From Lachnospiraceae bacterium (GTDB lineage Bacteria; Bacillota; Clostridia; Lachnospirales; Lachnospiraceae), in the NCBI GenBank assembly GCA_017460885.1, contig JAFUAB010000022.1, forward strand, positions 62,001 through 126,000: a stretch of DNA of 64,000 bases, given 5' to 3'. Positions 1,957 to 64,000 of this stretch are shown here, piece by piece. The notes below the pieces were generated by a model that was not told the DNA's origin, did no database searches, and saw only the letters and a list, made by a program, of their open reading frames with translations. Position 1 is the stretch's first letter. Every line of letters begins with the position of its first letter. A program made the position numbers and the translations under genes.

Positions 1957-1967
1957 GGAGTAATGAA

Positions 1968-3187: not shown

Positions 3188-3200
3188 GTACTGTTAAATA

Positions 3201-3494: not shown

Positions 3495-3520
3495 TTACGG
3501 AACATGATTATGGGGGAGAT

Positions 3521-4228: not shown

Positions 4229-4235
4229 GGACGAC

Positions 4236-29609: not shown

Positions 29610-29813
29610 GGGAATTCTGATCAAAACATTTATAAGCCAGTCTCCCGTCCGCGATTAAGACAATAGGGTATGGCAATGATGAAACGTATTCTTGACATTT
29701 CACGGGCAATGATGGAAGATGTTAAATGATCGTTTTGATCTTCAAAAAATTAATTGTTTTTTGAACCTTTTTAACAGTAACTTAAGTCTTTATGTTCAGA
29801 GGAAGTATGATTT
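29610..29813. other. Intergenic region with a 9-bp inverted repeat
   Basis: 204 bp between the DUF3810 and SEC-C genes. TTCAAAAAA (29741-29749) and TTTTTTGAA (29757-29765) form a perfect inverted repeat with a 7-nt centre; it could be a weak AT-rich terminator or a regulator site. A TTGACA hexamer is at 29692-29697 but no good -10 box lies 16-18 bp downstream. A 19-codon frame (29670-29729) lacks convincing support. Confidence 0.5.
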
Positions 29814-30946: not shown

Positions 30947-30981
30947 AAAGGGTGTGTACTACCGTACACGCCCTTTATTTC
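30947..30981 (+). terminator. Rho-independent terminator after the CAP lipoprotein
   Basis: A 13-bp stem, AAAGGGTGTGTAC (30947-30959) with GTACACGCCCTTT (30964-30976) and one G-T pair, a 4-nt loop and a T-rich tail to 30981. Because of its strength, the sortase gene downstream should have its own promoter; TTGTAG (30984-30989) with TAATAT 15 bp later is a weak candidate. Confidence 0.9.
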
Positions 30982-31076
30982 ATTGTAGGACGCCAGGTAC
31001 AATTAATATTGGAAGAAGTACAGGCAAAAGAACGATCGGTCTTTTGACGGATTGGATACTGAGGTCAGATCAGGAT

Positions 31077-35888: not shown

Positions 35889-35992
35889 GATAAAATGGTG
35901 TATTCGGTGTTTTCTTAACTGACGTTGACTATTTGAATTTTATATCATATTGAACGTTATTTACACAATTATGAACAAAATGTGAACCTTTT

Positions 35993-36018
35993 GGACTCCT
36001 TCGGGAGTCTTTTTCTTT
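35993..36018 (+). terminator. Terminator after the ABC permease
   Basis: GACTCC (35994-35999), a TTCG tetraloop, GGAGTC (36004-36009) and TTTTT from 36010. The 3' arm and the sequence after it belong to the upstream element repeated before the second giant gene; the 5' arm is present only here. Confidence 0.85.
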
Positions 36019-36120: not shown

Positions 36121-39100
36121 ATGAAGAGAAGAAAAACTAAACTTTGGAAGAAACTGCTTGTGGGATTTATGTCCTTCAATATGTTTCTGGGAAATCTGCA
36201 GGCTCTGTCCATAGAAGCCTTCGCGGCGGAAGTGGATCATGACGAGGAATACGCTGAAGAGGAAGGCGGTGTTTTCCTCGGAGACAGCTTTGAGGACTAC
36301 GGCTTTACCGCCGGGACAGAAGAGGATTATTCGGAATCTGACGAGTCGGTCGTATACAATGTATCCTTCTATGATACCGAGGGAAATGAGATCAGCACAG
36401 AGGAGTATTCAAAAGGTGCTTATCTGCAGCTCCCGGCACTTGAAGGAGATATCTCGTGGGTGGACTCCAACGGGTATTCATATTACGACTCAACACAGGT
36501 TATAAGTGATCTCTCTCTCTTTGCAATTGATAATAATATTGATAGTTCCGAATCTGTTGACAGTTCGGAAGCTGCTTCGGATGATACATCCGTTTCCGAA
36601 GAGGATATGACTGCGGCTGTACCGGCAGAGGATATTGAATATAAGTACGGACTGAGCGCTCACTTCACAGATGCTGACGGAGATGTGATCCCGGGTTATG
36701 AGGAAGCTGAACTTCCCAGGTTCACGGGATTCCTTAGTCTGAGTGATGTCAAGAATCCTCCGGTTGTGATCGAAGATTATGATTATGTAGAGGCAAGGAT
36801 CGGCAACACCGTGGTAACGGCTCTCAATGCCGATGAGAACGGTGAGATCATTGAACTTACCGCAGGCAGCGAAGTTTACAATGTAGATACGGATATAGAG
36901 CTTACACTTGTTTATAAATCGGTTTATGCGGCTGTCGAATTGAAGGGAACGGTTGTAGATGAGTTTGGCGATCCTGTCGGTAATGATTATATAGATATGG
37001 ATCTGCCCGAGTTTAACGAGGACGGAATACTTATACTTGATGATGAAGAGCTTCCCCCTGTAGAAAAGGTTAAGACCAGAGCAGGGCTTTTCAGATCGGT
37101 TTCCTACACATATGTAAAAACTACTCTCAACGGAACTACTATCAAGGCACTCAAAGGTGAGGCAGCCAAGAACGGAGTTGATACATATTATTCATATACT
37201 GTGGATGGGGAGACCTGGATCCCGATCACCGAGAATGGCACGGTATACTTTGAATACACCGATGGCAGGAAGAGTGTATATACATATGAAGATTCCAAGG
37301 TTTCTGTAAAGGCAACCTTACAGCATGCAAATGCGGTACCGGATGATGCCTATTTTACGGTAACACCCGTTATCAACGGTTCGGCGTATGATGTTGATAC
37401 ATATATCGATGCCCTGAATAAAAAGGCATCGAATGACAGCGTACCGGACGGCTTCGAATATACCACGGATAATACGCTGCTGTATGATATTGCTTTCTAT
37501 ACCGACGAGAGCAGGACCGAAGAGATCCAACCCGCCGAAGGTATGGTAAAGATCGAACTCAACTTCCTTAACAATCAGCTTAAGGAAGATATTGCCGCGT
37601 CCGATGACAGCAATATGGTGGTTAACCATATGAGCGTCAGCGAGTCAAAACTCGAGGAAGCCGGAACATTGGCAGATGCAAATGTATCGGTCAAGGATAT
37701 CCGCGTGGAATCCGTGGATGCGAATGTGTCTGTTACGGGAGAGAATGTTGAGTTTTCGACAGGGAACTTCTCGATATTTACGATTACTGATACGAGTTCT
37801 TCATTTGTTATAGAGATTTCTTTCCAAAGGGCAGATGGATCGAGTGATAATGCCCCGGTGTTAGCGCGGGAATTCTTGTATTTGACAGACAATTCAGGTA
37901 AAAAAGCACTTGTGCGTCTTGATGGATCACAGGCTCAGAATGGTGTAATTGAACTAACTACGGAGAGTATTTCGGATTCAGAGTTCTCATTTAGCAATTT
38001 TACACCCTCTGAAAGTACTGTTGAATTTTTGCAGGCATTGAATAAAGATGTGGCAGATACTACAAGCCTGAATGGAAATATAAAGAACAGAGATTTTTGG
38101 AATTCCAAGATGAAACTCCTTAATCCTGATGAGGATCTCATTGGTATGTATAGGTTTACCATGCCTAATAAGGACTCAAATGGAAAGTACTCAATTGTTA
38201 ATGGGAAATTGTCGATTAATGCTAAATTATCGGATGCCGGAAGTGGTGGGTTGATATATAAAAGTGTACTAGGCAATGCTGTTAATTTTGGTATAACTGC
38301 CAATGAGTATTACCAGGAAAATGACGCTGAGACGAATTTTGCTACAAAGCTATATAGTGGAAACGCTGGACAGATAGGAGGAGATTTATCAAATAATACA
38401 GGTAGTTATTATATTGGCTCGGTAACTAACAAGCTATTGATAAAGGATGGTAAATCTGATTTTAATATTTTTGCTCCGGCTGAATACGAGTTTTCACAAG
38501 AAAAAGAGAATCAAGGACAAGGATATAAATTAAAATACACATCTAAGGGCCATTTTTATCCTACCTCAAAGAATGATGTTGATGCTTATGTTAAATCTCT
38601 TATAGATGGGGTGACTGCACCTGCGGGGACTGCTCTGAAGCTTCCCATGTCCGGATGGCAGGATGATAAGGTTCTTTTGGATTTAAAGGCGTTTGATGAT
38701 AATGCGGTGATACATATTGATCTGGATGATGCTACAAATTCAGATGGTCGTACTATTGGCGATGTTATTCAAATTAACGGTCGCTTATATATTAATAAAA
38801 AACAAAATCAAACAATCGTATTTCATTCAACAAGGTCAAGCGTTGGTATAAGCAAGTTTATGGTCTGCAACGATGGAAGTTATAGTAATTGGATAGGATC
38901 TGACACTCAAACAGCTTCTGTAATTGAGCCAATTGCCAAAAGTATCATTTTTGATTTTACTTCTTCAAATGTTTCGTATGTAAGTATGGTGGATAACGGA
39001 TCTATTTGTGGAATAATACTGGCACCGCATGCTACGGTAGAGTGGTGGAATACTTCCAGCGGATGGATCGTGGCAGATGTTGCAAAGGGTCATCAAGGTG

Positions 39101-42100
39101 AATGGCATAACGTTTATCAGGAAATGCCTCCTTATACACCTCCGACAAATGACTCTGGTACCGGCACTATCAAGATTACCAAGAGGCTTCAGGGTAAGGA
39201 TTCAGCCGAGAACGTAAAGTATCTATTCAAGATGTTCGGACAGGACAGTACGAGATATTCTGTTGGAGAATTACATGCGAATATTACCTTTACAAGCAGC
39301 AAGAACAGGAATGTTGATTATACCAAGACTGAAGAAAATATTAACGGAACGGATCGCGAAGTATTTTACTTTGAGCTATATGCAGATGAAACCATAACGA
39401 TAGCAGGTCTGCCCATTATTCCTCGCGGAATCGATTCTAATGGGAAAGAAGTATCCAACGATTTCTATATACAGGAGGTTAAGGCACAGACAGATGCAGA
39501 TGAGGTCTATGTAGAAAGTTTGGTCAACTTTGTATCCGATACTTCCAATGTTGCCAACTTTGCATTAAGTCAGAGAACACAGAATATTACAATTTATCCG
39601 GATTCATCTATTACATATGTAAACGTTTACTACAGTACTCTGACTATCGAGAAGAACATTATAGGTTATGAGAAGCCCCTTACGGATGCTCAGAAGAATC
39701 AGATCAGGTTTACGGTTACAGGTCCTGACGGTTTTAACCAGACTGTTTCGTATTCCCAGTTTACAGACAATAAGTTTACATTTGGCAAAGAGTATAAGCT
39801 TAAACGTGGAGAGTATACAGTAACAGAGTCCGGAGCGGACATCGACAAAAATTACACATATACTACAACTATAAGCAATAATGGCAAGGTTACCATTGAT
39901 GCCGCTAATCCCGGAACCGTTACCGTAACCAATACTTATACCGAGGCTCCTACGGAAGCTACGGTTAAGAAGGTGTGGGACGATAGCGATGATCAGGATG
40001 GTAAGAGACCGACCGAACTCAAGGTAACTCTCAATAACGGGACAGAAGTATTCCTTAACGAGTTCAATAACTGGACCGCTACGGTTGGCAACCTGCCTAA
40101 ATATGATAATAATGGCGACGAGATCATCTATACATGGTCTGAGCCTTCGATGCCCGCAGGGTATACCCTGACCAATACCGAAAAGAACGGTACTGTTACA
40201 ACTCTGACCAACTCATATAATACCAAAAAGACTTCCGCATCTGTAGAGAAGGTATGGAACGATGACAGTAACCGCGACGGTATCAGACCTGACGGCGTAG
40301 AAGTAGCCCTGTACAACGGCGTTGATAACGATCCTGTTAAGACGGTCACATTAAATGCCGGAAACAATTGGAGTCATACGGAAAGTGATCTTCCTGTAAA
40401 TAAGGCAAGGACAAAGCTGACATATACATGGAAAGAATTGAATACTCCGTCTGAGTATACCAAGGCAGAGACAGTAAATGGAACTCTCACCACAATTACC
40501 AATACTCATACTATTGAGTCAACGAGTGTAAGTGTAAATAAGGTATGGAATGATTCTAATGATCAGGACGGCATGAGACCTGACAACATAAGCGTCAGAC
40601 TTCTCGCCAATGGTAAATCTGCCGTACATACTAACGGTACTGCAGTTAGCAATATTGAGTTAACGAGTACCGGTAATTGGAGCGGATCTTTCACAAATCT
40701 TCCCAAGAAAGCCGGTGGAACCGATATCACATATACAATAGAAGAAGTTGGTACAACGAATGAAAAGTTCACCGTGACCAAAAACGGCAGAACGAAAGAA
40801 TATACCGTAAGCATTAACGGCTTTACGATCACCAATAGCTGCGAGACAGAGAAGACCAGTATTAGCGGGTCCAAGACATGGAATGATAATAATGATCAGG
40901 ATGGTGTGAGACCTGATTCTATTACGATCAATCTACTTGCAAACGGTACGAAGGTTGATTCACAGCCAGTATCAGCCGACAATGAAGGAAAATGGAACTG
41001 GTCTTTTGAAAATCTGCCCAAGTATAGTAATGGTATTAAGATAGCTTACTCCATAACAGAGGATCCGGTTGCCAACTATACGTCCGAGGTAAGCGGATAT
41101 AACGTAACCAATACTCACGAAACAGAGAAAACAAGTATTAAAGTTACGAAGACATGGGATGATAATAATGACCAGGATGGTGTGAGACCCCCTTCGGTGA
41201 CTCTGCAGCTCTGTGCAGACGGGGAAGAAGTCGAGGGTAAGACAGCTGAATTAAGTTCTTCCAATGCTAAATCGGAAAATATATGGGAGTATACGTTTAC
41301 CGGACTTGATAAGAAAACAAATAACGGAACCGGATCCAGGCTGATCGAATATACCGTTAAAGAGGTTACAATTCCAAATGATTATGCGATTATTGGGGGT
41401 GAGAACGGTTCCGGTAAGAATATTACCAACTATCATAAGCCCGAGACTAAAAAGCTTACTATAACCAAGAACTGGATTAATAATAGCAATACTGCCGGGT
41501 TAAATCATGACAGTATTACTGTAAATTTATGGAAGTCGGTTAACGGCAGTGATCGGGTACAGGTTGGTGAACCTATAATCATGAACGGTACCGGTAACAC
41601 ATGGACATATACTACCGAAGAGCTTCCTGTTAAGGAAAACGGACAGGATATCACATATACTGTTACCGAGGAATCGGTATCACATTATAAGACCGAGATC
41701 AACGGACTGACCATTAATAATACTTATGAAACGATATCCGTAAACGGTACAAAGATCTGGAATGACGCCAAAAATCAGGACGGAAAGAGACCGGATTCCG
41801 TTAATGTTAAACTGACAGCCAGTACCGGTGAGATTTACAGTCAGATCGTGAAAGGGGACAAAAAGGCTGATTCCTGGAATTGGAGCTTCGCCGATCTGCC
41901 CAAGTATGCCAATGCGAATGGCGATCTCGTTACCTACACGGTCAGTGAAGATCCCGTGGAAGGATATACAACTGCATATGACGGCAATACAATAACCAAT
42001 TCATATACCCCCGGCAAGACTTCGGTGACTACCACCAAGACATGGGTTGATGGAGATAATCAGGATGGCATACGGCCTGCAAAAATCAATGTAGCTTTGG

Positions 42101-45100
42101 TAAAGACCTATACGGATGACGAGAACGCTACGCATGAGACGAATGTGGAGAGTGTAGAAATCACGGCCGCAAAAGATGGTACATGGTCCTATAAATGGCC
42201 GGAGCTTCCGGATCATGAGGATGGATATCCGGTCACCTATTCCGTGCGTGAGGATACAGTCACAGGCTATACGACAACTTATGAGGGCACCAATATCACC
42301 AACACTCATACTCCGGAGGTTACCGAGGTTACGGTTACCAAGGAATGGGACGATGATGATAACCGTGACGTAGTAAGGCCTTCATCTGTGACCGTGGTTC
42401 TCAATGGTGATGATGGAAGTTCCAGAGAAGCAACCATAGCACCTGACAGTAACGGGGTGTGGTCGTATACCTTTACCGGACTTCCTAAGTTTAACAATTC
42501 GACTACTCCTATTGAGTACACTGTATCCGAAAAGAATGTTAATAAAAACTATACATCTGAAGTAGACAATGAGAGCCTGAAGATCACTAACAAGCATGAT
42601 ACAGCTAAGGTTTCCGTTTCGGGAACAAAGATCTGGGATGATGATAATAATAATGACGGCTACAGACCTGATCAGATCAAGGTCAAGCTGCTTGCGGACG
42701 GTACGGAAACAGGTAAGACCGTAACTCTTCCTGGCGAAGATGGATGGAATTATTCATTTGAAGGACTGAATAAGTTCAGGAAGGGAGAAAACGGAGCTGT
42801 TCTGATCAACTATACCGTGTCGGAAGAAATCGTATGGAACGAAAACAATTCCGGCAAATATCTTGCCCCTGTTTATGATTATTCAAAAGACAATAACGGA
42901 AACGTTACCTGTACGATCACTAATAAACATACTCCCGATACTATGGAGTTTACAGTGACCAAGACATGGTCTGACGACAATAACCGGGATAACAAGAGGC
43001 CCGCTTCGATTGTATTTACGCTTTATGCTGACGGAGCGGCTGTATTGGATAATGCAGGCAACAAGGTAACAGCTACCCTGACCGATAATGCAACTGCCGA
43101 AAATCCTAATGTATGGTCATATACCTTTACCGGACTGGCTAAATTCAAGAGAGTTGATAATGAAACAAAGGAGATCAAATACTCTGTTAGGGAGGAAACT
43201 GTTCCCGCTGGATATGAAATCACAACCACAACGGATACTAATATTATCAATAATCATGCTCCTGAAACCGTTAAGTTCAATATAACCAAGAACTGGAACG
43301 ATAATGGTAATGAGGCAGGGCGCAGACCTGAGAATATCACGGTTATACTGACAGGAAAGGTAGGAGATAGTACTGTTTCTACTGATGAGTACAGTTTCTC
43401 GGGTACAAAGGAGACTGATGTATGGACATTTGAGACTCCCGAACTGCCTAAATATAATAAAAAAAGCCTAATCAGCTATACGCTTACTGAGTCTGAGCCC
43501 GGAAACAGCTACAGACAGGTTGGAGATGTTTCATATACCGAAAAGTCGGGATTTGTTCTCACTAATGAATATGTTCCGGAATATGTAACCATAAGCGGAA
43601 CCAAGGTTTGGAATGATGAATCCAACTTTGACGGATCGAGACCCCAATCTGTAAGGATCATAGTCAACAGAGGAACCGAGAATGTGGCAGAGCAGATCGT
43701 ATCCCGCGGATCAGACGCCGACAGCTGGGACTGGACTTTCGGTACTGATTATAAACTGCCCAAGTATGATAATGGTGAGCTGGTAGAATACACTATTGTT
43801 GAAGATACTACCGGATTGGCCGGAATCTACCAGACTTCCTACGATAATGCCACACAAAAGGCTAGTGCTGATAGCAGTGCTATCACCGGAATGACGATCA
43901 CCAACACCTATGAACCCGGCAAGACCACCGTATCCGTTACCAAGATTTGGAACGACGGTGAAAACAGAGACGGATTCAGACCTACAAGCATACAGGTTCA
44001 GCTTCACAAATATGTAGGTGGTGTAGAAAAAACCAATGAGGCTAAGACGGTCGAACTGAATGCCGGTAATAACTGGACTACTGCATGGAGCGGCCTTGCA
44101 TTAAAGGAAAACAATAAGACTGTTACATATACAGTTACCGAAGATACTGCGCTTCACGCCGGATATACATCGTCGATCACTCATACCGGCGATGCATGGA
44201 CCATAGAGAACAGTTACATCCCCGAAACTATAAGCATCAGTGGAGGCAAGGATTGGGACGATGCTAATAATCAGGACGGAGCAAGACCTGAGAGTATAAC
44301 TATCCTTCTGTATAAGAACAAGACCTCCGATGGAGATAGGTCCTCCGATGAAAACAATACCTCCGATGGAAACGAAACCTCCAATGGAGATGAAACCTCC
44401 GATGAAAACAATACCTCCGATGGAAACGAGACCTCCGGTGAAAACAATACCTCCGATGGAAACGAGACCTCCAATGGAGGCGAACTCGTAGCGTCTGTGA
44501 AAACAAATGCCAATGAGGGCTGGGCGTGGAGCTTTACCGATCTGTATAAGTATGAGAATGGTAAGCCTGTTAACTATACCGTTGAAGAGGCATCGGTAAG
44601 TCCTTATAGATTAACAGCTACAACCGAAGGTACGACTGATGCTAACGGTAACAGGTCAGGTATCATATTTACCAACTCGTATACACCTTCAACTACTTAT
44701 TTAGAAGGTTCAAAGACATGGAATGATAATAATGATCAGGACGGGAAGAGACCCGGGAGCATCACGATCCAGCTTCTGGCTAACGGTAACATTGTTACCG
44801 GGAAGACCCTGAAAGTTACAGATGAGGATGGTTGGAAATGGATATTTACGGATCTTCCCAGAAAGTCTAATGGTCAGGAAATTAAGTATACCGTAAGCGA
44901 AACTCCTGTATCCGGATATGAGACTGCCTATTCCGAGAATGGAGCGAATGTTACCAATACTCATACTCCCGAGACCATCACTGTAAGCGGTACAAAGACC
45001 TGGCTTGATAATGATGATCAGGATGGTAAGAGACCTGAGAGCATTACCGTACATCTTTTCGCCGGTGGTACGGAAGTGGCTAATAAAGTTGTTACGGCGG

Positions 45101-48100
45101 GAGATGATTGGAAATATACATTTACCGGTCTTCCCAAATATGCATCAGGCACAGAGATCACCTACACCGTTACGGAAGACACTGTGAGCGGATATACCAC
45201 AGAGTATTCCGGATTTGATATCATAAACAAACATACGCCTGAGAAGATCAGCATAAACGGATCCAAGACCTGGAATGACGCTGATGATCAGGACGGTAAG
45301 AGACCGAATACTGTTACTATCAAACTCTTAAAGAACGGGGAGGAATTTAAGACCGCAAGCATATCGGAGTTCAATGATTGGAAATGGAACTTTGATGATC
45401 TTGACAGGTATGAAGACGGAAGAGGGATCGCTTATACCGTAGTAGAGTCACCGGTTGATGAGAATTATACGGTAAATCCCGAAAACGGCTTTGTTGCGAC
45501 AACCTCAGACGGTAACATTGAAAAGCTTAAGGATCTTGTGTTTGTAAACACCCACACTCCCGAGAAAGTTACCATAGAGGGTACAAAGGTTTGGAATGAC
45601 GCTGATGATCAGGATAATAAGAGACCTGAGAGTGTGACCATTAATCTGCTTGCAAATGGTGAAAAGGTTAATAGCATAACCCTTAAAGAGGAAACAGGCT
45701 GGGATTGGAAGTTTGAGAACCTGGACAAATATTCTGAGAAAAATGAGATCACGTATTCAATCTCAGAGGAATCTGTAGAGGGATATACTCCTGATTATTC
45801 CTATGATAAGGATACGGATAAGTGGACGATCACCAATTCATATACTCCCGGTGAGACTTATGTAAGTGGTGTCAAGGTTTGGAAGGATAATGAAGATCAG
45901 GATAAGATCAGACCTGAAAGCATTACCGTTAAGCTGCTTGCTGACGGAAAATACCTTAATTCAACTACCGCAAGCGAATCCGATGGATGGACATGGAGGT
46001 TTGATAACCTTCCGATAAACAAGGCAGGAGCAAAGGGACAAAAGATCAATTATACAATAAAAGAAATCTCCGTAAACGGATATACTACGGAGATCGCAAA
46101 AGCTGAGGGCAAGGATAATGAATATGTGATCACGAATTATCATACGCCTGCGGAGATCAGCATCAGCGGTAAGAAGGAGTGGAGCGATAATAATGATCAG
46201 GATGGTATCCGTCCGACCAGCATAGATATAACACTCAGTTCAGATCTGGAGGGCTTCGAGAATCAGGTATTTACTGCTGTCGCACCTGATTACGAGTGGA
46301 GCTTTACCAATCTGCCCAAGCTGAATAAAGGTAAAAAGATCAATTATACAGTGACGGAAGATCTTAAAACAGCCGGATATGTATTTGATGAGAAAGCATC
46401 GAATCTCATAGGTTCACCTGATACAGTTGGTAATGTTTCAGGTATCACATTTGTCAACAAACACGAGCCCGAGAAAATAGAGATCGGTGGCATCAAGACC
46501 TGGAATGATGCAAATAATCGGGATAACAAACGACCTGCTGAGATCACGCTTGACCTATATTCCGATAAATCCGCAGACACCACGGTTCCGGTAAAGACTA
46601 TTAATGTGAAGGCTAATGAAAAGGGTGAATGGAAATGGAGCTTCGGCCAGGTTGACAAGTACAGCGGCGGACAGGTAATCACCTATACTGTAAAGGAAAG
46701 ACTTGTTGAGGACAGCGTATATACCGTTTCACCTGAAAGTGTAACCGTGACCGGTGAGAGCGATACAAATATCACCATTGAGAACAGCTATACTCCCGAG
46801 ACTATCAACATCTATGGTTCCAAGTATTGGGATGATAACAATGACCAGGATGGCATCAGACCCGAATCCATTGATGTGATCCTCAGGGAAAGAGGTACCA
46901 ATGGTCAAATAGACAAAAAGACCGTTACAGCCGAGGATGATTGGAAATGGTCATTTACGGATCTGCCGAGAAGAAGAAGTGGCGCTGTCATTCAGTATGA
47001 GGTCGTGGAGGCACCTCTTGCTGAAGACTCCGGATACACTTTTGAAGGGGCATCCACGGAGAATATAACTGAGAATGGGAAGGTTATCACCTTCTCAGAC
47101 ATAGTATTTACCAACAAGCATGTATCTTCGACTGTAAATGTATCGGGTACCAAGACCTGGGTTGACAATGATGATCAGGATGGTTCCAGACCTGCCAGCA
47201 TTACGGTTCGTCTGTATGCGAACGGTGAGGAAATCAAAAATACTACGGTCAGCGCTGATGAGAAGGGCGACTGGAAGTACTCGTTTGATGATCTTCCTGA
47301 GAAGGAATCAGGAGAGACGATCGTCTATACCATAACAGAGGATGAGGTTCTCAGTGCTAACGGAAGCGACAAAGCATATGTCTCTTCAATTGATGGATAC
47401 AATATAACCAATACTTATGAAACAGAGACCACATCCGTAAGCGTAAAGAAGATATGGGATGATGCTGATGATCAGGATGGAAAGAGACCTGAGAGCGTTT
47501 CCGTACAGCTGACAAAGAACGGAAAGCCTTATGGTGAAGCGGTTGAGCTTGACAGTGAGAACCTTTGGAGCCATACCTTCAGCAATCTGCCCAAATATGA
47601 AGCTGGTACAGCAATAGAATACGGCGTGACGGAAGCTGCTGTTGAGGATTATTCCACCAAGATAGACGGAAACATGTCTGCCGGCTATACCATCACCAAC
47701 AGTTATACTCCCGGAAAGACCGCCGTGAGTGTAAAGAAGATATGGGATGATGCCGATGATCAGGATGGAAAGAGACCTTCATCGATCAATGTTATTCTTG
47801 CAGCTGACGGTAAGGCCAAACAAACCGCAGAACTGAGTGCTGCAAATGACTGGAATTATACCTTTGAAGATCTTGACCTGTATTCATCCGGAAATCCGAT
47901 CAGCTACAGCGTAACAGAGAATTCCAAAGATCTGCCTGACGGCTACAAGCCCGGAGCACCTGTAAAGGTTGTAGATAACAGTAATGCCTGGAGCATTACC
48001 AATACTTATGTTCCGGAAACTACGTTTGTAAGCGGATCGAAGACCTGGAAGGACAGCGGAGATCAGGATGGTGTGAGACCTGAATCGATCACTGTCAGAT

Positions 48101-51111: not shown

Positions 51112-51161
51112 TGCGATCTGAATAAGAAGTGGTTGACATAATATTAAAATAATTCATTCTC

Positions 51162-51191
51162 AAAGGGGCTGTCGGAAGACAGCTCCTTTTT
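51162..51191 (+). terminator. Rho-independent terminator of giant gene 1
   Basis: A 12-bp stem, AAAGGGGCTGTC (51162-51173) with GACAGCTCCTTT (51178-51189) and one G-T pair, a GGAA tetraloop and TTTTT. Gene 2 therefore needs its own promoter. Confidence 0.9.
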
Positions 51192-51309
51192 GCTGACTAA
51201 TTTTATCGACAATTCGCCCAATTTGTCGAATATCTAATAAAATTTTTAAAAAATTTAAAATTTAAAACGTTTTACTGAACCGTTTAACCTTTTCCCGGAG
51301 TCTTTAACA

Positions 51310-51366
51310 TTGAGGAAAGTTTTTTTGGGCATACTATACCCTTGCACCGGATACGAAAACGTTTCC
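51310..51366 (+). promoter_or_regulatory. Candidate promoter and cre-like operator of giant surface gene 2
   Basis: TTGAGG (51310-51315), a 16-bp spacer and TACTAT (51332-51337), followed by GAAAACGTTTCC (51355-51366), one mismatch from the cre core. Its centre is about 24 bp after the -10 box, as in gene 1. A second palindrome of the same type, TAAAACGTTTTA (51263-51274), lies upstream of the -35 box. Confidence 0.5.
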
Positions 51367-51438
51367 GAAATGCAGAATCATAGATGATGATATACAAGAA
51401 CATAGCCAAAGAGTCAGATGAAAATGGAGAGTAGAACT

Positions 51439-54400: not shown

Positions 54401-57400
54401 TATGTGACTATGCCGAGGGCAGAGGAGAGTGGCATTTTGTCAGTCAGGATGTGCCGAGTGTGACGGACGATCATACAACCTTGAAGCTTGATATCGTCAA
54501 GACACTGATCGATGATAACGTTCCGAGTGGGGAAACCAATATTGACAGTCTCTGGCCTGAGGAAGGATTTAAGTTCAGGATCACGAAGTATGCCGCAGGC
54601 AGCATTGAGGGTGACCAAAACGGCTATGAAGTCATGCATGATGTCAATAAGATTCCCGATCTTGACGGAATGGTTAACGGTGAGAAGATAGTTACGATCA
54701 CTAAAGATCAGGCCGGTAAGAAGGTAACTGTCGGTACGCATGATTTCACCGGATCGGAAGAGTGGGAAAAGACTTCTCTTACATATGAAGATCACAGATA
54801 TTATGCCTTTATGTACAAAGTAGAGGAATTACCCTGCGGTAACTCCGATATTGAGCCTTATCCCACCAATACCTACTTTGTGAAATTCTTTATTAATATC
54901 AGACAGGTAGTGAACGGGGATGATATTAAGTATTATGTATGGGTTGACGGACCGCATGTGTCCGGTACCGTGCTGGTATCCAATTCATGTATTCCCAAGG
55001 ATATCGAGTTTGAGAATCACTATAATCCCGAGCATCGTAATATCAATGTGACCAAGAACTGGTCCGATGGAAACAATAATCACTCCAACGATTCCGTGAT
55101 CGTACAGCTGACGGTTAAGGAGCAGGATGGTTATAAGGATGTTCCAGGTCAGACAGCTGTTCTGAATGCAGCCAACAACTGGTCCGCTACGTATTCAAAT
55201 CTGCTCTTTGATAAGGAATACAGCGTCCGCGAAGTTTCGGTGAACGGAAAAGTAGTTCAAAACTCACGGGTTATGGTGGGCTCTAAAGAGTATATAACTA
55301 ATGTATCAGGCAATGCCGTGGACGGATTTGCAGTAACGAATTCGTCTTCAGGTAACGGGACCCTTAGGATAAGGAAAGAGATATCATCTGAAGACAAGAG
55401 TCTATTTTCAAATTATTTCTATAACCTGTACTTTGAAGTATATGATGCAGACACTAAGGCTCTCGTGGCTGCCAGCAAACCCGGGAGCACCACCTCTAAA
55501 GATGCAGCATCCAGGGGGGATTATGAAGGCGGAGGATGGTTCAGGGTTAGCAACCTGCCTTATGGTAACTATTATATTGTTGAGAAAATAAAGGGCGAAG
55601 CAAACGATAGTGTGGCATGTATTGGCAATGAGGTTCTGGTCGCAACATACTATAAATCTCTAAGAGCCGGAGATAATGAAGGATTTGCAGAGGGCGGTAC
55701 TAAGAGTGACACTGCTGGAACGACAGGAACTTTTGTATTTAATCAGGATACAAGCCGCCTTAATCTCAGAAATGAGTATAAGCCGACAGGTAATCTTCGC
55801 ATACACAAGATAGTTGTTAATGACTTTGGCAGTGCAAATGTAAGGAATAAAAAAGATTCTATACTTAATAGTGTTATTTTCAGACTCACAAATACGGCGG
55901 ACAGCAATGCATATATTACTTTTAAGGGTTTTGCCACTACCAGGAAGGATCGCAAGAATGGCTATGCGGTCGGGCATGGCACGCTGAAAGGTCGTACTTT
56001 TGATGTCGAGTATAATGAAAATGCCCAGTGGACGATCTTTAATGTTCCCAAAGGTGATTATGTAGTAGACGAGGTCGCTGACGGATTTACTTTTGCATAT
56101 GACGAAGAAACAAATAAAAGCAATGTGATTTCGGAATCGACCTTCAGCAGGATCACACATTACGGAGTCACTACTGATGAGAACAGAAGTTCAACCATTT
56201 ATTGTTCTGAGGGTGATAATGTCAGGGTTAAATCTGCTGTTCAGTGTGCTCAGAATGTGAATCCTCAGATTGCGACAGTGGGAGGTGATGTGCAGACTGT
56301 ACAGGTTTGCAATTTCTATAGTAATCCATTGACACCTGTATCTGTTACAAAGAAATATCCGGGATGGAGTAACGGAACAAATCCCGATAAGACTTTTGAT
56401 TTTGAAATCATTGCCGGCAACAATACTGCTCATGATTCTGAGGGTAATCCTGTTTCGGTTTCCACACCTATGCCGACTGATACCACTGTTTCGGTTTCCG
56501 GCAATGAAAGCGGGATCGGTACGGCACATTTCGGAGATATAGTTTATAAGTTTGAGGGAACCTATGATTACACGATCAAAGAGGTGATTCCGGCTAGCGG
56601 AAAGGAAATTACAGATCCGCGAACGGGTAGAACTGCTTTTCTTGGAAATGATGGCATAATCTATGATCTTCGTGAGATAAAGGTTACGGTGAGCGTTTCG
56701 CAATGTAGAACCGAGTTTAACAAAGCGGCGAATATAAAAGGAACCTTGACCGAACTGGATGGAAAATATATAGAATATAAAGAAATATTCTATTATCTCG
56801 GTGCGGATGTTGTTTACAAAGAAAACGGGGAAACTGTCGCCACAACGTCAATGCGTCTTCCGGATAAATTTAATACGGCTGACAGCAACAGTGTAAAAAG
56901 CTATATTGAAACAACAGCATGGACGCATATGGACAGCAGAAGCTGGCTGTTCAGTAATGATGATGAAGAACTGATCTCCATCTCCGGCACCAAGGTCTGG
57001 GATGATGCCAATAATCAGGATGGTTTGAGAGACAATATTGTCTTTACCCTGACATCGAATGATCCCGGCTTTGCGACTCAGACACGTACCATAAGCAAGG
57101 ATTCAACCAATCTGAGTACCATAAGCAAGGATTCAACCGATCTGACATGGTCCTTTGAGAATCTGCCGAAGTATAACAGTGCCGGACAACTCATAAATTA
57201 TACGGTGGAAGAAACTACTCAGATTGACGGATATTCGACCACAGTAAACGATAATAACGGAAACACTATCACCGTTAACGGTGAGAACGGTAATACTTCC
57301 GAAGTTGAATTTAAAAACACTCATACTCCTCAGTCTACTTCGATCACTGTAGTGAAGAAGTGGGAGGACAAGAACAATCAGGATGGGAAACGTCCTGATG

Positions 57401-60400
57401 CTGTTATGGTTACTCTCATGGCTAATGGAACGGCCGAAGGTGATGCTGTTAAGTTGGAAGATAATAACCAATGGACACATACCTGGAAAGACCTGCCTGT
57501 GTATCAGGGTGGAGTAGCTATAGCTTATACGGTTGAGGAGTCTGCGGTAAATTCAGGAGACCTTGAAGGTTATTCACTTACTCCATCCACCGCCACCTCT
57601 AATGATGGCACTACCATAACGCTAACCAATACCTACAGTCCCGAGACAGTCAGATTAAACGGCAAAAAGATATGGAAGGACGCTCTGAATGAAGGAACGG
57701 AAAATGAGATACAGGATGCTGACCGGATCCGTCCGGACTCGGTGACCATTATCATAAAAGACGGAGATTATGTGATCGGCAGAACTACCGCTTCTAAAGA
57801 AACCGGCTGGGCATGGAGTTATCCCGCAGAGGGCGAGACTCTGGATAAATTCCGTGACGGTCAGATAATAAACTATACAATCGAGGAAGTAGCTGTACCG
57901 GAATACTCTGCCACATATGACGGCTATGATATTACCAACACGCATAATCCTGCAAGGATTGACATCCCCGTAACCAAGGAATGGAAGGACAATAATGACC
58001 AGGACGGTGTAAGGCCTGCTTTTGTTACGATCAGACTGCTCAAAAACAATGTAGATACCGGGAAGACCGTTACGCTGAATGAAGATAATCACTGGTCAGA
58101 TTCCTTTACAAATCTGGAGGAATATGAATTTGTAAGGAACACGGATGGTACTCTGGCGAAGAACACAATCACTTATTCTGTTGAGGAGGTTGGAGCAGAG
58201 TCCGACAGTATCACGTTTAATAATGCAATATACACAGTAAGCGTGAGTGTTTCTGCCGAAACGGGATTTACCGTTACCAATACCCATACTCCTGAGGAGA
58301 CGGAGAAACCGGCTGTTAAGGTATGGGATGATGATAAGGACAGGGATGGCTGCAGACCTGACAGTATTAAGCTTCAGCTGTATGCCGATACCGGTGTAAA
58401 CGGCACGGATGTTCCGGTAGGAGATCCCGTGACTGTTTCACCCGGCTCAAAGCACGGAGAGGAAAATAAAACCAAAGTTTCCTCAGATGAATCCGGAAGA
58501 GATACCTGGACATATACATTTACCGGACTTGACAAGTACCGCAGGATCCTTGGCGAGGATGGTAAGCCTGTTGGTGATCCTGTCGAGATCAGGTATACAA
58601 TCAAGGAGATCGTTGATGAGGCGACAGCCAAAAAATACAATCTTGCTGTTGTTGACGGTGAAACCATGTCCGTTGATCCGGTTTATTCAGAGGATCATCT
58701 TACCGTAACCAACATTCACATACCTGAAACTACCGAGATCGAGATCAAAAAGGTATGGGATGACGCGTCAGATCAGGATGGCATCAGACCCGACAGAGTG
58801 AAATTGCAGCTTTATGCAGATGGAGAGGCAAAGGGTGAGCCGATCGTTCTTTCTCCCGGCTCGAATGGTGTCAGTATCAGTGAGGACGGAAATACATGGT
58901 CATACAGAATCTCCGGTCTGACCAGGTTTTCCGGTAATAAACATGATAACGGGAATCCTGTTCCGATCAGCTATACCATAGAAGAGATCACCGTGGATAC
59001 CACTACGGATCCCGCTACGGATCTTCTGAAAGGATATACTCCTTCCAAAATGAATGGTCACAGCATTAAGAACAGTCATACTCCCGAAACCGTAAGTATT
59101 CCTGTAAAGAAGATCTGGAATGACGAACATAATATAGCAGGTCTCAGACCTTCCAAAATTACTATCAAACTTTGGCAGGATGAGGTTGTGGAGGATGGTA
59201 AACCTTATGAGACCCACGAATTAAGCGGCGGACTTACAGACGAAGCCTGGACATATACCTTTACGGATTTGCCAAAATATAAGACAGTTACCGAAAACGG
59301 ACAGAAGACCGGCGGACACGAGATCAAGTATATCGTAACAGAGGAGGGATACAATACCGATCATTACACAGCGAATGCATCTGAAATTGATACTCTTGCT
59401 ACAGACGGTTATTACACATTTAATAATTCCTATAAAGTAGAATATGTGTCCGTAGAAGGCAAGAAGGTTTGGAATGACAGCAGTAACGCTCATAACAGCA
59501 GACCCGGCAGTATTGAACTCAAGCTTTATAAGACTATAGGAACGTCTGAGGAGAAGCAGCTGGTAGATACTTACACTATTACGCCTTCTGCAAATGACGC
59601 TGAGCAGGATGAGTGGTCATGGACGATAGACTCATTTACAAAGACAGATAAAGATTCAGGTATAACCCATATTCTGCTCAAATACGAAAATGGAAAACGT
59701 GTACATTATTCGGTAGAGGAGACACCTGTTGATAATTACGATACACCGGTGGTCGTTTCCGGTAAGGAAGATACAGAATCCGGTAATGTTTCGGAAGTAA
59801 AGATCACAAACACATACAATCCCGGCAGCAAATCCGTAAGCGTTCATAAGACATGGGATGACAGTAATGATCAGGATGGCAAGAGACCTCAGAGCATAAC
59901 CGTATATCTGATCAAAAGATATGCTGACAGTAAGGAAACCATAGTTACGCAAAGTGAAGAGCTTAATGCCGGCAATGCTTGGTCATATACCTGGGAGAAT
60001 CTCCCGACCAGGTATTCCAACAGAGACGTGGAGTATGTGGTTGATGAAGCTCAGATCAGCGTTCCGGATAAATATACGTCAATTGTAGATGGATATGAGA
60101 TCACTAATACCTATATCCCCGAGACCATTAATATCAGCGGCACCAAGGTTTGGGATGACGATGATAACAGGGACGGTAAGCGTAGGAATGCAGTGATCAA
60201 TCTGTATAAGAATGTATATACAACCGACGAATCCGGACAGAAAACAGTTCAAAAGGTATTTGTTGGATCAGACATTGCATATATCTATGGAGCAGAGGAA
60301 AAACCTGCGGATAAACCTGTGGATACATGGGCATTCAACAACCTGCCTAAGTATGATAAGGGCGAGGAGATTGAGTACTTTGTTTCAGAGGAACCTATAG

Positions 60401-63400
60401 ACTCCTATACGACTACTGCCAATAAATCGTTTGTTTCCGAAGCCGATAAGGAGATCCGGGTTTCAGGAGAGAGCGTAAAGAATATCACATTCACCAATAC
60501 TCATGTGACATATAAGACTTCGGTTCCCGTTACCAAGATCTGGGATGATAACCGTGATCAGGATGGCAAGAGACCGGATGAGGTTACGATCAATCTCCTG
60601 GCTAATGGTAAGTTGGTTACATCACATGATCTTACAGTCGAAGATATGGAATCCGCACAGAATACCAGTGTTTGGACTTATACATTCGGTAAGACTTCTG
60701 ACGGTAAAGATACCCTTCCCATATATGAGAATGGTAAAAAGATCGAATATACCATTGAGGAAGTAATAAACGGATCCGAAGTTGATGGAGAATCAGAATC
60801 AGTCAAAAAGTATGTACTCGGTAAAGATAATGTAAAGTACTACGTAACTCAGAATGATAAAACTATTACCAACACTTATACTCCCGAGCTCATTGATATC
60901 CCCGTTACCAAGACCTGGGATGATAAAGAAAATCAAGACGGTATAAGACCCGAAAAGATCACTCTCACACTTTACGCCGGTAATGAGGAAGTACGCAGCG
61001 AAACCATCAGCGGCACCGAAGATGTATGGAGTTATACATTTAAGGATTTGCCGAAGTATGCAAACAGAACCGCAATCGTATACAGAGTTGAAGAGTCCGG
61101 ACAGAATTCCAAAGTCAGAGACGGGGAGACCGGTTATACACTTTCCTTCAAGGAGGGAAGCAAATTTAATCTGGTCAATGAGCATACACCCGAGACGACA
61201 TCGGTTAAAGGATCCAAAATCTGGGAGGATGTCGGTGATCAGGACGGAGGCAGACCGGAGAGTATTACGGTCAATCTGCTTGTCAATGGTAAAACGGTTG
61301 ATTCAAAGACTGTAACATCAGCCAACGAATGGAAGTTTGAATTTACGGGTCTGCCCAAGTATGCTAATGGCCGTCTGATCACCTATACCGTGGAAGAGGA
61401 TGGCGCAGAAGGAGGGCAGATATCGTTCGCATCCGGAAACGATCCTCAAAGACAGGTTGAGTATATCGTTACGTTAGACGGATACAATATCACAAATACC
61501 CATAAGCCCGAAACAACCGAGGTCAGCGTGACCAAGGTTTGGGAGGATGATGACAACAGAGCGGGAAAACGTCCGGATAATATAAAGGTATCTCTGTACA
61601 AAGGAAATGAGCTTGTCAGCTATAAGGCTGAGGATGCTCAGGAAGCGGTAACGGAGATAACGCTTAATGAGTCGAATCACTGGACATACACATTTACGGA
61701 TCTGCCTAAATATGACGGCGGCATTGAGATTGCCTACAGCGTCAAGGAAAAAGGAGATCTTCCCGCCGGTTATTCAAAATCTGTGACTAACGAGGGCAAT
61801 GCCTTTACCATTACCAACACTTATGCACCCGACAAGGTGTCCGTCAGCGGTGTTAAGGTTTGGAATGATTCTTATACCGATGCATTCGGCAATAAGACCG
61901 ATAATGCCGACGGCCTGAGACCGGATAAGGTGATCGTTGTACTTAAGGCCGATGGACAAACAGTAAAAACAATTGAAACAAATGCAACCAAGCACTGGGC
62001 ATGGGAGTTTACCGGGCTTGATAAGTACAAAGCGGGTTCTCATGGAGAAGAGATAGTCTATACGGTTGATGAAGAGACCGTAAGTACGGGCTACAGCAGA
62101 ACCATCGGGAACAGTATCCTAAAAGATGAGAACGGAGATGCTGTAAAAGACGATGAAGGAAATTCTGTGATCGTCCCCAACGAATGGGTGATCACCAATA
62201 CACATGTTCCCGTACGTACAAGCGTCGAGGTAGAGAAGATCTGGCAAGACAATGACGATCAGGACGGCGGAAGGCCCGGCAGTATTACGGTTCAGCTGTA
62301 TGCGGACGGACAGGCTGTAGAGGGCAGGACCGCGGAACTGAATGCCGGTAATAATTGGAAGGCATCATTTACTGATCTGAAGAAGTATTCCGACGGAGTC
62401 AGCGTACCGATCAACTATACGATCAGGGAAACCGGAACAAGTACCGAAACCGACGGAAATGAGACAAAGGAATATGTTACCTTCAGCAGGAACGATAAAT
62501 CCTATAAGTACTATGTAACAACTGACGGTGGCCTGACAGAAAGCGGAGACAGGTATGTATACAGTATTACCAATGAATACACTCCCGAGACCACATCTGT
62601 CAAGGTGACCAAGATCTGGGATGATGGGAATGATCAGGATAAGCTCAGACCGGATAGTATTGTGATTAAGCTGTTCGCCGATAATGAATTAAAGGAATCC
62701 AAAACGATCACCGGTGCAAGTATAGACGAGAACGGTAACTGGACGTGTGAATTTACGGATCTGCCCAAATATAAGACAGTTACCGAAAACGAAATAACGA
62801 CCGGCGGTCATTCGATCACTTATACCGTACAGGAGGAAAAGGTATCCGTCACCCGAAGAAATGGACAGACAGTTGATTATTCTGCTTCTGTCACAGGCAA
62901 TATGATCACAGGTTATACCATCACCAACAGCTATGAGCCTGAGAAGATCAGCATCGAGGGGATCAAGACCTGGAAAGACGGGGAAGATCAGGATGGCATA
63001 AGACCCGATTCCGTGATCATTGTTGTGACGGATAATAAATCACACAAAGAAGCGGGAAAGGTCACATCTACAAAAGAGAACAACTGGAAATGGAAGATTG
63101 AAGGACTGGACAGATATCACGACGGAGAACCTGCAAGCTATACGGTTGCCGAATACGATACCATATCCGAAAAGGTAACTGACGAAACAACCGGAGAGGA
63201 AAAGACTGTTCTCAGGGCAAAGGACAGGAACGGAAATGCTTCTTATGTTGTAAGCAGCGGCAGAACAGGTTCACTGGATACATCTTCCGGCAATATCTCC
63301 GATGTGGAATTTGTTAATACCTATGTTCCCCGAACAGTTGATCTGGCCGGAAAGAAATTCTGGGCGGATGCATCCGATCAGGATGGCAAGAGACCCGAAT

Positions 63401-64000
63401 CGATCATTATCGACATCCTGAAGGTATACGGAGAGGGCGAAAACAGAACCGAAAAGTTAGTAAAGAGCATTACAGTCAGCAAGCCCGAGGGTCAGACCGT
63501 CAATGAGTGGTCATGGGAAGAAAAGGGTCTTCCCGAGAATGAGATCCTGGAAGATGCCGATGGCAGAACCGGTGGCCATAGGATCAACTATACAGTCAGA
63601 GAGCGTATTTCGGGTAAAGATGAGAATGGCGAATACATATTCGGTAATGATTCGGCTAAATACTATGTATCACAGTCCGGAAACGATATAACCAACACTT
63701 ATACACCCACAACCGTAGATATAGAAGGAACCAAAACCTGGATCGATGATAATAACGCCGAGAATAAGAGACTCTCAAGTATCACGATCCGACTCTGGAA
63801 ACCCGACAGCACATCCGGGACCGGTATAAGTGAGGCAGCTCATAAGACTGTTACCGCAGATGATGGGTGGTCATGGAAATTTGAAAAGCTTCCGGAATAT
63901 GAGAGCGGTCAGAAGATCACTTATACGATCTCCGAGGACAGTGTTGAGGATTATACCGCAACTGTAGACGGCAGCAATGTGATCAATACCTATACACCCG
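51439..64000 (+). CDS. Giant Cna_B-repeat surface protein 2, partial at window end
   Basis: Open from ATG 51439 to the end of the window (4187 codons); frame spot-checked at 55021, 57088, 60121 and 63961. The N-terminus (MKRRKTKLWKKMLVGFMSF) and the next 560 residues parallel giant protein 1, followed by a choice-of-anchor-A-like domain (about 710-1006; GMVIAPKAHV, GEWHFV). Next come prealbumin-like domains (1014-1630), a pilin-type Spy0128/FctA-like isopeptide domain (about 1632-1835; KTFDFEIIAG, GTYDYTIKEV) and about 20 Cna_B repeats from 1848, plus one divergent copy near 1202. Repeat consensus and candidate isopeptide residues are as in protein 1. Cysteines are more frequent in its N-terminal third. 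GGAGAG precedes the ATG. The C-terminus and any sorting signal are outside the window. Confidence 0.88.
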   Translation, partial: MKRRKTKLWKKMLVGFMSFTMFLGNLSSLSVEAFAAEEGLFDETEGSEDGVFIDSGDFDNVLTVSDGSELNASANEDFDSPLFNEDIENSPENEISDPDNDNTDPELTVEEAPESSDLQSDTDITADNDNPDDNDAAEEQVVPARSLYKLNVSVLDADGDPIPGYEDSVIPDFDGNLDLTNRLDPPIRVENYNFVEAKLGNNVIESLCKNDEGYISSLISGGETYTIDLDVDLDLYYESKYQVTELKATIVDEFGDTVDDKLSDMDLPSFNDEDILVLDDPGLPPVENVKVRSGLFRSVKYTYVKASYDGKTIKALRTQPAVKGEGNYYAYTVDGTEWTYFDKDSTILFEYTDGKKSVYTYEDSKVAVTATLQHANAVPDDAYFAVTPVVKGSSYDVDSYIDALNKEAVPENASAGFEYSMDNTLLYDIAFYTDETKSEEIQPADGMVKIEMQFLKNQLKDELDASADSGLLVNHLSLDESVLTDAGTTAAAEVRSDDISVETIDANVSVSDGSVEFKTESFSIYTITDIGDDIAGQIVIDYDFAPDTLPLGVIFISGSNNPNAHVILKLADYLQGDKVMITSEGLARTNVGGLESGVTYSIELWKAVSSEKYNSFNPDNNFEKNDFSRVIYNSYNFDRTYQVKEGTDEWGQDTYSYYTENVTAEPQNSGIIDMYSYSMPASGEVSDGTIRITATRVPVNDKVIPATILRDAVNFGVVANTYENVNDTQSNFATKLYIGGNDVGADMSNNPGTTYIAEFSGTGLNIRNNLGSSALLIGCNVSQTTEQDTARLYTVPDKDGQPYTIYDKSKKADVINVGKDTVNRKIDNLISGVSIPAGNKVVLPKATLASGDPEYYLDTTSLPDGTIHFDLDNSTGAEGKSLYEVWSTSQKVYIKKNPDQTLIFHSNQSQITLCEYNVYDWSNGKYETSASPTTSGDKNERLLNNVASTMVFDFPNASTLDFASAITGMVIAPKAHVTWSTACCGWLICDYAEGRGEWHFVSQDVPSVTDDHTTLKLDIVKTLIDDNVPSGETNIDSLWPEEGFKFRITKYAAGSIEGDQNGYEVMHDVNKIPDLDGMVNGEKIVTITKDQAGKKVTVGTHDFTGSEEWEKTSLTYEDHRYYAFMYKVEELPCGNSDIEPYPTNTYFVKFFINIRQVVNGDDIKYYVWVDGPHVSGTVLVSNSCIPKDIEFENHYNPEHRNINVTKNWSDGNNNHSNDSVIVQLTVKEQDGYKDVPGQTAVLNAANNWSATYSNLLFDKEYSVREVSVNGKVVQNSRVMVGSKEYITNVSGNAVDGFAVTNSSSGNGTLRIRKEISSEDKSLFSNYFYNLYFEVYDADTKALVAASKPGSTTSKDAASRGDYEGGGWFRVSNLPYGNYYIVEKIKGEANDSVACIGNEVLVATYYKSLRAGDNEGFAEGGTKSDTAGTTGTFVFNQDTSRLNLRNEYKPTGNLRIHKIVVNDFGSANVRNKKDSILNSVIFRLTNTADSNAYITFKGFATTRKDRKNGYAVGHGTLKGRTFDVEYNENAQWTIFNVPKGDYVVDEVADGFTFAYDEETNKSNVISESTFSRITHYGVTTDENRSSTIYCSEGDNVRVKSAVQCAQNVNPQIATVGGDVQTVQVCNFYSNPLTPVSVTKKYPGWSNGTNPDKTFDFEIIAGNNTAHDSEGNPVSVSTPMPTDTTVSVSGNESGIGTAHFGDIVYKFEGTYDYTIKEVIPASGKEITDPRTGRTAFLGNDGIIYDLREIKVTVSVSQCRTEFNKAANIKGTLTELDGKYIEYKEIFYYLGADVVYKENGETVATTSMRLPDKFNTADSNSVKSYIETTAWTHMDSRSWLFSNDDEELISISGTKVWDDANNQDGLRDNIVFTLTSNDPGFATQTRTISKDSTNLSTISKDSTDLTWSFENLPKYNSAGQLINYTVEETTQIDGYSTTVNDNNGNTITVNGENGNTSEVEFKNTHTPQSTSITVVKKWEDKNNQDGKRPDAVMVTLMANGTAEGDAVKLEDNNQWTHTWKDLPVYQGGVAIAYTVEESAVNSGDLEGYSLTPSTATSNDGTTITLTNTYSPETVRLNGKKIWKDALNEGTENEIQDADRIRPDSVTIIIKDGDYVIGRTTASKETGWAWSYPAEGETLDKFRDGQIINYTIEEVAVPEYSATYDGYDITNTHNPARIDIPVTKEWKDNNDQDGVRPAFVTIRLLKNNVDTGKTVTLNEDNHWSDSFTNLEEYEFVRNTDGTLAKNTITYSVEEVGAESDSITFNNAIYTVSVSVSAETGFTVTNTHTPEETEKPAVKVWDDDKDRDGCRPDSIKLQLYADTGVNGTDVPVGDPVTVSPGSKHGEENKTKVSSDESGRDTWTYTFTGLDKYRRILGEDGKPVGDPVEIRYTIKEIVDEATAKKYNLAVVDGETMSVDPVYSEDHLTVTNIHIPETTEIEIKKVWDDASDQDGIRPDRVKLQLYADGEAKGEPIVLSPGSNGVSISEDGNTWSYRISGLTRFSGNKHDNGNPVPISYTIEEITVDTTTDPATDLLKGYTPSKMNGHSIKNSHTPETVSIPVKKIWNDEHNIAGLRPSKITIKLWQDEVVEDGKPYETHELSGGLTDEAWTYTFTDLPKYKTVTENGQKTGGHEIKYIVTEEGYNTDHYTANASEIDTLATDGYYTFNNSYKVEYVSVEGKKVWNDSSNAHNSRPGSIELKLYKTIGTSEEKQLVDTYTITPSANDAEQDEWSWTIDSFTKTDKDSGITHILLKYENGKRVHYSVEETPVDNYDTPVVVSGKEDTESGNVSEVKITNTYNPGSKSVSVHKTWDDSNDQDGKRPQSITVYLIKRYADSKETIVTQSEELNAGNAWSYTWENLPTRYSNRDVEYVVDEAQISVPDKYTSIVDGYEITNTYIPETINISGTKVWDDDDNRDGKRRNAVINLYKNVYTTDESGQKTVQKVFVGSDIAYIYGAEEKPADKPVDTWAFNNLPKYDKGEEIEYFVSEEPIDSYTTTANKSFVSEADKEIRVSGESVKNITFTNTHVTYKTSVPVTKIWDDNRDQDGKRPDEVTINLLANGKLVTSHDLTVEDMESAQNTSVWTYTFGKTSDGKDTLPIYENGKKIEYTIEEVINGSEVDGESESVKKYVLGKDNVKYYVTQNDKTITNTYTPELIDIPVTKTWDDKENQDGIRPEKITLTLYAGNEEVRSETISGTEDVWSYTFKDLPKYANRTAIVYRVEESGQNSKVRDGETGYTLSFKEGSKFNLVNEHTPETTSVKGSKIWEDVGDQDGGRPESITVNLLVNGKTVDSKTVTSANEWKFEFTGLPKYANGRLITYTVEEDGAEGGQISFASGNDPQRQVEYIVTLDGYNITNTHKPETTEVSVTKVWEDDDNRAGKRPDNIKVSLYKGNELVSYKAEDAQEAVTEITLNESNHWTYTFTDLPKYDGGIEIAYSVKEKGDLPAGYSKSVTNEGNAFTITNTYAPDKVSVSGVKVWNDSYTDAFGNKTDNADGLRPDKVIVVLKADGQTVKTIETNATKHWAWEFTGLDKYKAGSHGEEIVYTVDEETVSTGYSRTIGNSILKDENGDAVKDDEGNSVIVPNEWVITNTHVPVRTSVEVEKIWQDNDDQDGGRPGSITVQLYADGQAVEGRTAELNAGNNWKASFTDLKKYSDGVSVPINYTIRETGTSTETDGNETKEYVTFSRNDKSYKYYVTTDGGLTESGDRYVYSITNEYTPETTSVKVTKIWDDGNDQDKLRPDSIVIKLFADNELKESKTITGASIDENGNWTCEFTDLPKYKTVTENEITTGGHSITYTVQEEKVSVTRRNGQTVDYSASVTGNMITGYTITNSYEPEKISIEGIKTWKDGEDQDGIRPDSVIIVVTDNKSHKEAGKVTSTKENNWKWKIEGLDRYHDGEPASYTVAEYDTISEKVTDETTGEEKTVLRAKDRNGNASYVVSSGRTGSLDTSSGNISDVEFVNTYVPRTVDLAGKKFWADASDQDGKRPESIIIDILKVYGEGENRTEKLVKSITVSKPEGQTVNEWSWEEKGLPENEILEDADGRTGGHRINYTVRERISGKDENGEYIFGNDSAKYYVSQSGNDITNTYTPTTVDIEGTKTWIDDNNAENKRLSSITIRLWKPDSTSGTGISEAAHKTVTADDGWSWKFEKLPEYESGQKITYTISEDSVEDYTATVDGSNVINTYTP
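57088..57147 (+). repeat. 30-bp tandem duplication in giant protein 2
   Basis: Two units, 57088-57117 and 57118-57147, encode TISKDSTNLS and TISKDSTDLT. They differ at a few bases only. The duplication lengthens a loop within the first Cna_B repeat of the main array. Confidence 0.85.

Follow-up and report, generated by a model that had tools for sequence, protein, structure and literature searches.

The window (the whole stretch analysed, 64,000 nucleotides) is part of contig 55 (C55) of the 3.6-Mb genome of a Lachnospiraceae bacterium. Two adjacent genes on its forward strand encode the giant Cna_B surface proteins P1 and P2, and a presumed sortase operon lies upstream of them. The nearest named relatives were Lachnospiraceae, including XBB2008 and metagenome-assembled genomes labelled goat rumen, water-buffalo rumen and red deer. 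The features of the two giant genes are given below in window coordinates.

36121..51111, +, P1, giant Cna_B surface protein, 4996 amino acids (aa) (open reading frame [ORF] list)
36940..37788, +, P1 conserved N-terminal core, 283 aa (alignment)
38191..39120, +, P1 head, predicted to be a choice-of-anchor-A / ice-binding-like domain
39643..39942, +, P1 extra isopeptide-type domain resembling DUF5979 (20.0 bits, under the cut-off of 25)
39946..50754, +, P1 array of 35 contiguous Cna_B domains (Pfam and iterated profile)
44317..44478, +, in-frame 18/54-bp minisatellite (TSDGN-type) within P1 Cna_B domain 15 (repeat scan)
48877..50754, +, P1 wall-proximal six Cna_B domains (30-35)
51001..51108, +, P1 sorting signal SPATGD, hydrophobic stretch and KKKK tail (TIGR01167, 17.5 bits, cut-off 15.9)
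51162..51189, +, terminator-like hairpin after P1 (-19.8 kcal/mol, z -4.1; not listed by the consensus terminator scan)
51418..64000, +, P2, giant Cna_B surface protein, complete at 5378 aa, gene end beyond the window at C55:129554 (ORF list and same-contig sequence)
52174..53022, +, P2 conserved N-terminal core (alignment with the P1 core)
53518..54447, +, P2 head, PF20597 pAdhesive_15 (39.5 bits as an isolated piece, cut-off 23.8)
55030..55356, +, P2 first Cna_B domain, separate from the main array (profile match)
56341..56703, +, P2 FctA-type (Spy0128-like) isopeptide domain (43.3 bits, cut-off 22.1)
56968..64000, +, P2 main Cna_B array, domains 2-21 (iterated profile), with 10 further domains and an SPQTGD anchor beyond the window

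An initial annotation of the window had described two adjacent giants with a common N-terminal plan, about 35 and at least 20 Cna_B domains, retained Lys, Glu and Asn positions, and a joint share of more than 40% of the window, and each of these statements held. P1 was confirmed at 4996 aa and the second reading frame was open to the window end; the complete second gene, which that annotation had called for, was obtained from the same contig (5371 aa if counted from the second Met), and the pair took up 43.1% of the window. Both N-termini were read by eye as signal peptides, and are followed by the core (64% identity between P1 and P2) and by a choice-of-anchor-A-type head. The N-terminal alignments, the core alignment included, held five of seven N-termini, and a fold search on the P1 core returned ZU5-like matches at noise level only. 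Compared with P1, P2 carries about 540 aa extra between its first Cna_B domain and its main array, the FctA-type domain included.

Pfam Cna_B (PF05738, cut-off 22.3 bits) matched P1 in 35 stretches with 2060 bits for the whole protein, and parts of P2 with 308 and 1100 bits. With the iterated profile, P1 (aa 1276-4878) resolved into 35 contiguous domains; P2 had 31, one at aa 1205-1313 and 30 contiguous ones at 1851-5270, and 20 of these 31 lie entirely inside the window. All three letters of the Lys/Glu/Asn triad were aligned in 34 of 35 domains of P1, 29 of 31 of P2 and 16 of 19 of P3, a third giant described below. The repeat set comprised 213 of 216 domain matches (three weak or partial ones were left out), the alignment of P1 repeats 34 of 35 (domain 15 with its insert was omitted), and the triplet alignment 45 of 57 listed triplets. 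Among themselves, the P1 repeats were 30-56% identical in their best-scoring matches. The minisatellite in P1 domain 15 possibly encodes a length-variable loop.

The Cna protein of Staphylococcus aureus has a sortase-anchored stalk of few B repeats and a collagen-binding A region. Its B region (1d2o/1d2p) is built of the same tandem domain family: the triad was in register with that of the giants, and structure comparison gave the repeat the same beta-sandwich fold, with RrgB and other pilins ranking below Cna. In contrast to Cna, the proteins described here have 35 and 31 diverged repeats and an ice-binding-like head.

The C-terminus of P2, which lies outside the window, carries SPQTGD followed by a hydrophobic stretch and a tail of basic residues. 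The hairpin after P1 is terminator-like, so P2 may have its own transcript. P3 (3388 aa) is encoded on contig 5 (C5) and has 19 Cna_B domains and a C-terminus similar to those of P1 and P2; its N-terminal part is unlike theirs and contains Chlam_PMP-type repeats. Two VLGARR motifs stand ahead of the P1 sorting signal, and five proteins encoded in the genome (P1, P2, P3, and one each on C47 and C20) have motifs of this type in that position. The C20 protein has AQTSD where SPxTG is expected, and the C47 protein (1487 aa; L040 5109-9572, -) has a long DT dipeptide repeat ahead of an SPGTGD anchor.

The sortase operon and the copies of a promoter-like element shared with the giants were located as follows.

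29763..29791, +, element (GAACCTTTT-N14-GTCTTT) before the SECC-CAP-sortase operon
29814..30326, +, SEC-C motif protein (C-terminal motif), first gene of the presumed sortase operon
30360..30920, +, CAP-domain protein, presumed sortase operon (PF00188)
30954..31967, +, sortase, class-B-like, candidate anchoring enzyme (PF04203, 35.3 bits, cut-off 26.6)
31951..34176, +, TraX-GGDEF membrane protein after the sortase
35984..36012, +, element before P1
51277..51305, +, element before P2
C5:97413-97441, element before P3

The product of 29814..30326 is named a SEC-C protein from its C-terminal motif. The element, GRACYNTTT-N14-GTCTTT, was drawn as a consensus from the aligned upstream regions of eight giants (P1, P2, P3 and those of the congener loci L004-L008). 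The source genome has four exact copies, one each ahead of P1, P2, P3 and the sortase operon, and each is oriented like the gene that follows it; the operon copy, 22 bp ahead of the SECC gene, had no part in building the pattern. Dinucleotide shuffles of the window gave zero exact sites. Across seven genomes of the genus, 24 exact sites were found against three for the reversed pattern, seven of the 24 having been used to build it. By downstream gene, these were giants (8), SECC (7), C20-like genes (4, judged from the N-terminus only), a small membrane ORF (3), a second sortase (1) and one other. The SECC gene had one copy in each of the seven genomes, with a sortase start visible further down in all seven. 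In one congener (G004) the element lies about 0.5 kb before the second sortase, with a small ORF between.

Promoters of the extracytoplasmic function (ECF) type have GAAC at -35. The cGTC part and the spacing of the element resemble ECF promoters, as ECF41 promoters have CGTC and a spacer of 16 +/- 1 (PMC3426412), and by this analogy the -10 part of the element is tentatively assigned to an ECF-type promoter. In L004-L008, an inverted repeat CCCTCAAT...ATTGAGGG with a T-rich tail overlaps the element upstream of the giant, and P1 has a different terminator-like hairpin at the same position; attenuation in the leader is possible.

A giant was present at the same site in all six sampled congeners. 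The gene end was spanned in L004-L008, and the sixth contig (L012, G006) stops inside the giant. As far as the loci reach, the order sortase, glnH, glnP, giant, trigger factor was kept, with trigger factor after the giant in five of five. Four of these five giants were single open frames of 4227-4535 aa. The fifth (G005; L008 1732-14293) comprised overlapping frames of 2534 and 1692 aa, from either a real frameshift or an assembly error. Five congener loci have two ORFs between glnP and the giant, judged by eye to be glnQ-like and symporter-like; both are missing at this site in the source genome (35888-36121). The TraX-GGDEF gene was not between sortase and glnH in G002 (L005/L013) and G004 (L011). 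Within the window, a 36-bp tandem repeat (2.5 copies, 9881-9971) was also seen inside a 502-aa ORF (9312-10820).

In the search for the tandem pair in related genomes, proposed in the initial annotation, the giant recurred at the site, and the pair itself was seen in the source genome and in none of the five congeners that show the end of the gene. The source genome has two giants at the site and P3 elsewhere, and the congener site has one. The order of domains was compared over domains longer than about 60 aa and alignments of at least 60 aa. The six wall-proximal domains of P1 (30-35) matched P2 26-31, P3 14-19 and congener domains 21-26 in order, with some exceptions: P1.31 and P2.27 had P3.19 as best P3 match, P3.15 had P1.24 as best P1 match, and P2.26 had no match in L005; the weak point is P1.31/P3.15. 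Further out, P1 domains 18-21, 23, 28 and 29 best matched congener positions 9-12, 13, 19 and 20, each in two or more of the congener proteins, and the P2 mid-array agreed with the congener order in scattered places only. In the core tree, P1 and P2 were sisters (97/96). By position and repeat order, P1 is probably the orthologue of the congeners' single giant, and we infer that the pair arose by duplication in this lineage, after which P2 diverged; an older duplication with loss elsewhere may be the alternative.

Cna_B was found in 141 of 397 genomes of the family, among which the source genome had the most first-look candidates (85; the next had 66). One family member (G198) has a 9817-aa open frame, larger than P1 or P2, which holds 61 of that genome's 63 Cna_B matches, and also a 4723-aa frame with the core module. 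Among the more distant loci compared (L015-L018), in L017 and L018 the core and head region is joined to a long array in which no Cna_B was found and which was read by eye as SpaA-like domains, with a sortase upstream. Fibrillar adhesins with isopeptide stalks are a known class, into which the giants fall; their size is unusual but no record. The tandem isopeptide fibrillar adhesins of PMC12617251 likewise combine an adhesive head, an isopeptide stalk and a Gram-positive anchor; models in that survey went up to 1280 aa, which places proteins of P1 and P2 size outside it. Clostridioides difficile SrtB substrates such as CD2831 likewise have an (S/P)PXTG signal, a class-B sortase and a CnaB stalk domain, although CD2831 is described with one CnaB-like domain and c-di-GMP riboswitch control (PMC4155245, PMC4591827), whereas P1 and P2 have 31-35 domains and a different, shared promoter-like element. 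An Rfam scan of the window gave no match at gathering level. A Gram-negative giant with an ice-binding domain likewise has a giant repeat stalk, but of about 120 identical Ca2+-dependent repeats; those of P1 and P2 are diverged Cna_B domains, probably covalently locked, and the likeness is one of working, with kinship not implied.

We consider it probable, with good confidence, that P1 and P2 are fibrillar adhesins, each a giant single chain anchored to the wall by a sortase, and that they are bond-locked, duplicated and co-expressed. This reading rests on the observed architecture, triad conservation, homology, synteny and shared element, from which we infer bond formation, the anchoring enzyme, adhesion, co-regulation and the duplication. 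At the level of sequence, the interpretation in the initial annotation, the likely chemistry included, is supported. Each giant would be exported by its signal peptide, and the class-B-like sortase 4 kb upstream of P1 would probably join the SPxTG signal to peptidoglycan. The ice-binding-like head would sit at the tip of the stalk, whose 30-35 Cna_B domains would each be held by a Lys-Asn isopeptide bond that forms spontaneously with the help of Glu. Such a stalk would withstand pulling and proteolysis and hold the head far beyond the wall; at 4 nm per domain, 35 domains would give a fibre of about 140 nm. Duplication of the site's single giant gene would have given P1 and P2, of which P2 would since have diverged in its head and the middle of its array, the two remaining similar in their wall-proximal domains and anchor. 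The common element suggests that P1, P2, P3 and the sortase operon are expressed together, in a putative sortase/giant-fibre regulon.

Several results weigh against this reading. The P2 head was unreported when longer pieces were scanned by profile, TIGR04215 gave no match to it, PF20597 matched one of ten members in another head scan, no sequence profile detected the P1 head, and the head structure model had a mean predicted local distance difference test score (pLDDT) of 72. Both sortases found by a genome-wide PF04203 search (E up to 0.001) are closest to class B but under its cut-off (TIGR03064, 153.75 bits), at 136.4 bits (E 9.5e-40) for 30954-31967 and 151.2 bits for the second, which could be the anchoring enzyme instead. 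The element pattern was read by eye, and with one mismatch allowed there were 16 sites in the genome against seven for the reversed pattern, so that the excess is clear for exact sites only. The source genome's second sortase is without the element (best, five mismatches in 1000 bp), the C47 gene, which bears the tail, has two mismatches, and C20 and the G005 giant have one each. No copy was found in L015-L018 within two mismatches, and the search for a linked sigma factor tied none to the element. P1 and P2 are both long branches in the core tree, so their sisterhood may be attraction, and the P1 mid-array is nearer the congener order than that of P2, which an older duplication would also explain.

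A wider version is tentative, at somewhat below even confidence: the genus would have a surface-fibre regulon of its own, in which the sortase operon and giant isopeptide-locked fibres with ice-binding-like heads are under one promoter of the alternative-sigma type, and the anchoring enzyme would thereby be produced along with its largest substrates. In this species the fibre set would have grown by a tandem duplication and by a further, third copy, while the six-domain base stayed fixed. As a distant relative carries the core and head on SpaA-like domains, selection would act to keep the stalk long and covalently locked, whatever its repeat type.

Alternatively, the giants may belong to the matrix of a biofilm or cell aggregate, as homotypic or scaffold proteins whose stalks bind each other or other cells and not a plant or host ligand. 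The architecture fits this equally, and the strong divergence of the heads (32% identity between P1 and P2, 31-42% with congeners) is as for interbacterial or strain-specific recognition, but the adhesive-family match of the head leaves the ligand unspecified, and we regard this role as unlikely. It is more doubtful still that they serve mainly as a protective coat (fur) against phages, predators and proteases with an incidental head. Such a coat would suit locked domains that are retained while repeat sequences drift, as well as the Cna_B-free, SpaA-like stalks of L017 and L018; yet these same loci keep the N-terminal core (44% identical to P1) despite the different stalk, which points to a specific function at the tip. 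That the giants are subunits of sortase-polymerised pili is very improbable: Cna_B and FctA domains do occur in pilins, and RrgB and other pilins are among the structural matches, but both sortases are closest to class B, and the class C model gave E 0.36 for one and was not among the matches of the other up to E 0.01. Least credible is an assembly artefact, which the initial annotation had named as a refuting case: the 6.64% contamination rating of the source genome and the single giant in five congeners speak for it, but the cores are only 64% identical, 36121-64000 holds no exact direct repeat of at least 40 bp, the P1 repeats are diverged, both flanks match congeners, and the frames are open throughout, as in four of five congener loci.

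What is new is the giant at the same site in all six congeners and the element common to three giants and the sortase operon, and this shared element is the most useful addition. It makes it directly testable whether a sortase and its probable substrates are co-regulated and offers a handle for similarity-free discovery of further members. The locus is a natural series on stalk length and number, with three giants in one genome and one at the site in its sisters, and the 213 aligned repeats offer protein engineering a natural collection of diverged domains that are probably self-locking. If the preferred reading of P1 and P2 as bond-locked fibrillar adhesins is true, rumen-type Lachnospiraceae would carry very long covalently locked fibres, beyond the 1280-aa limit of the published survey.
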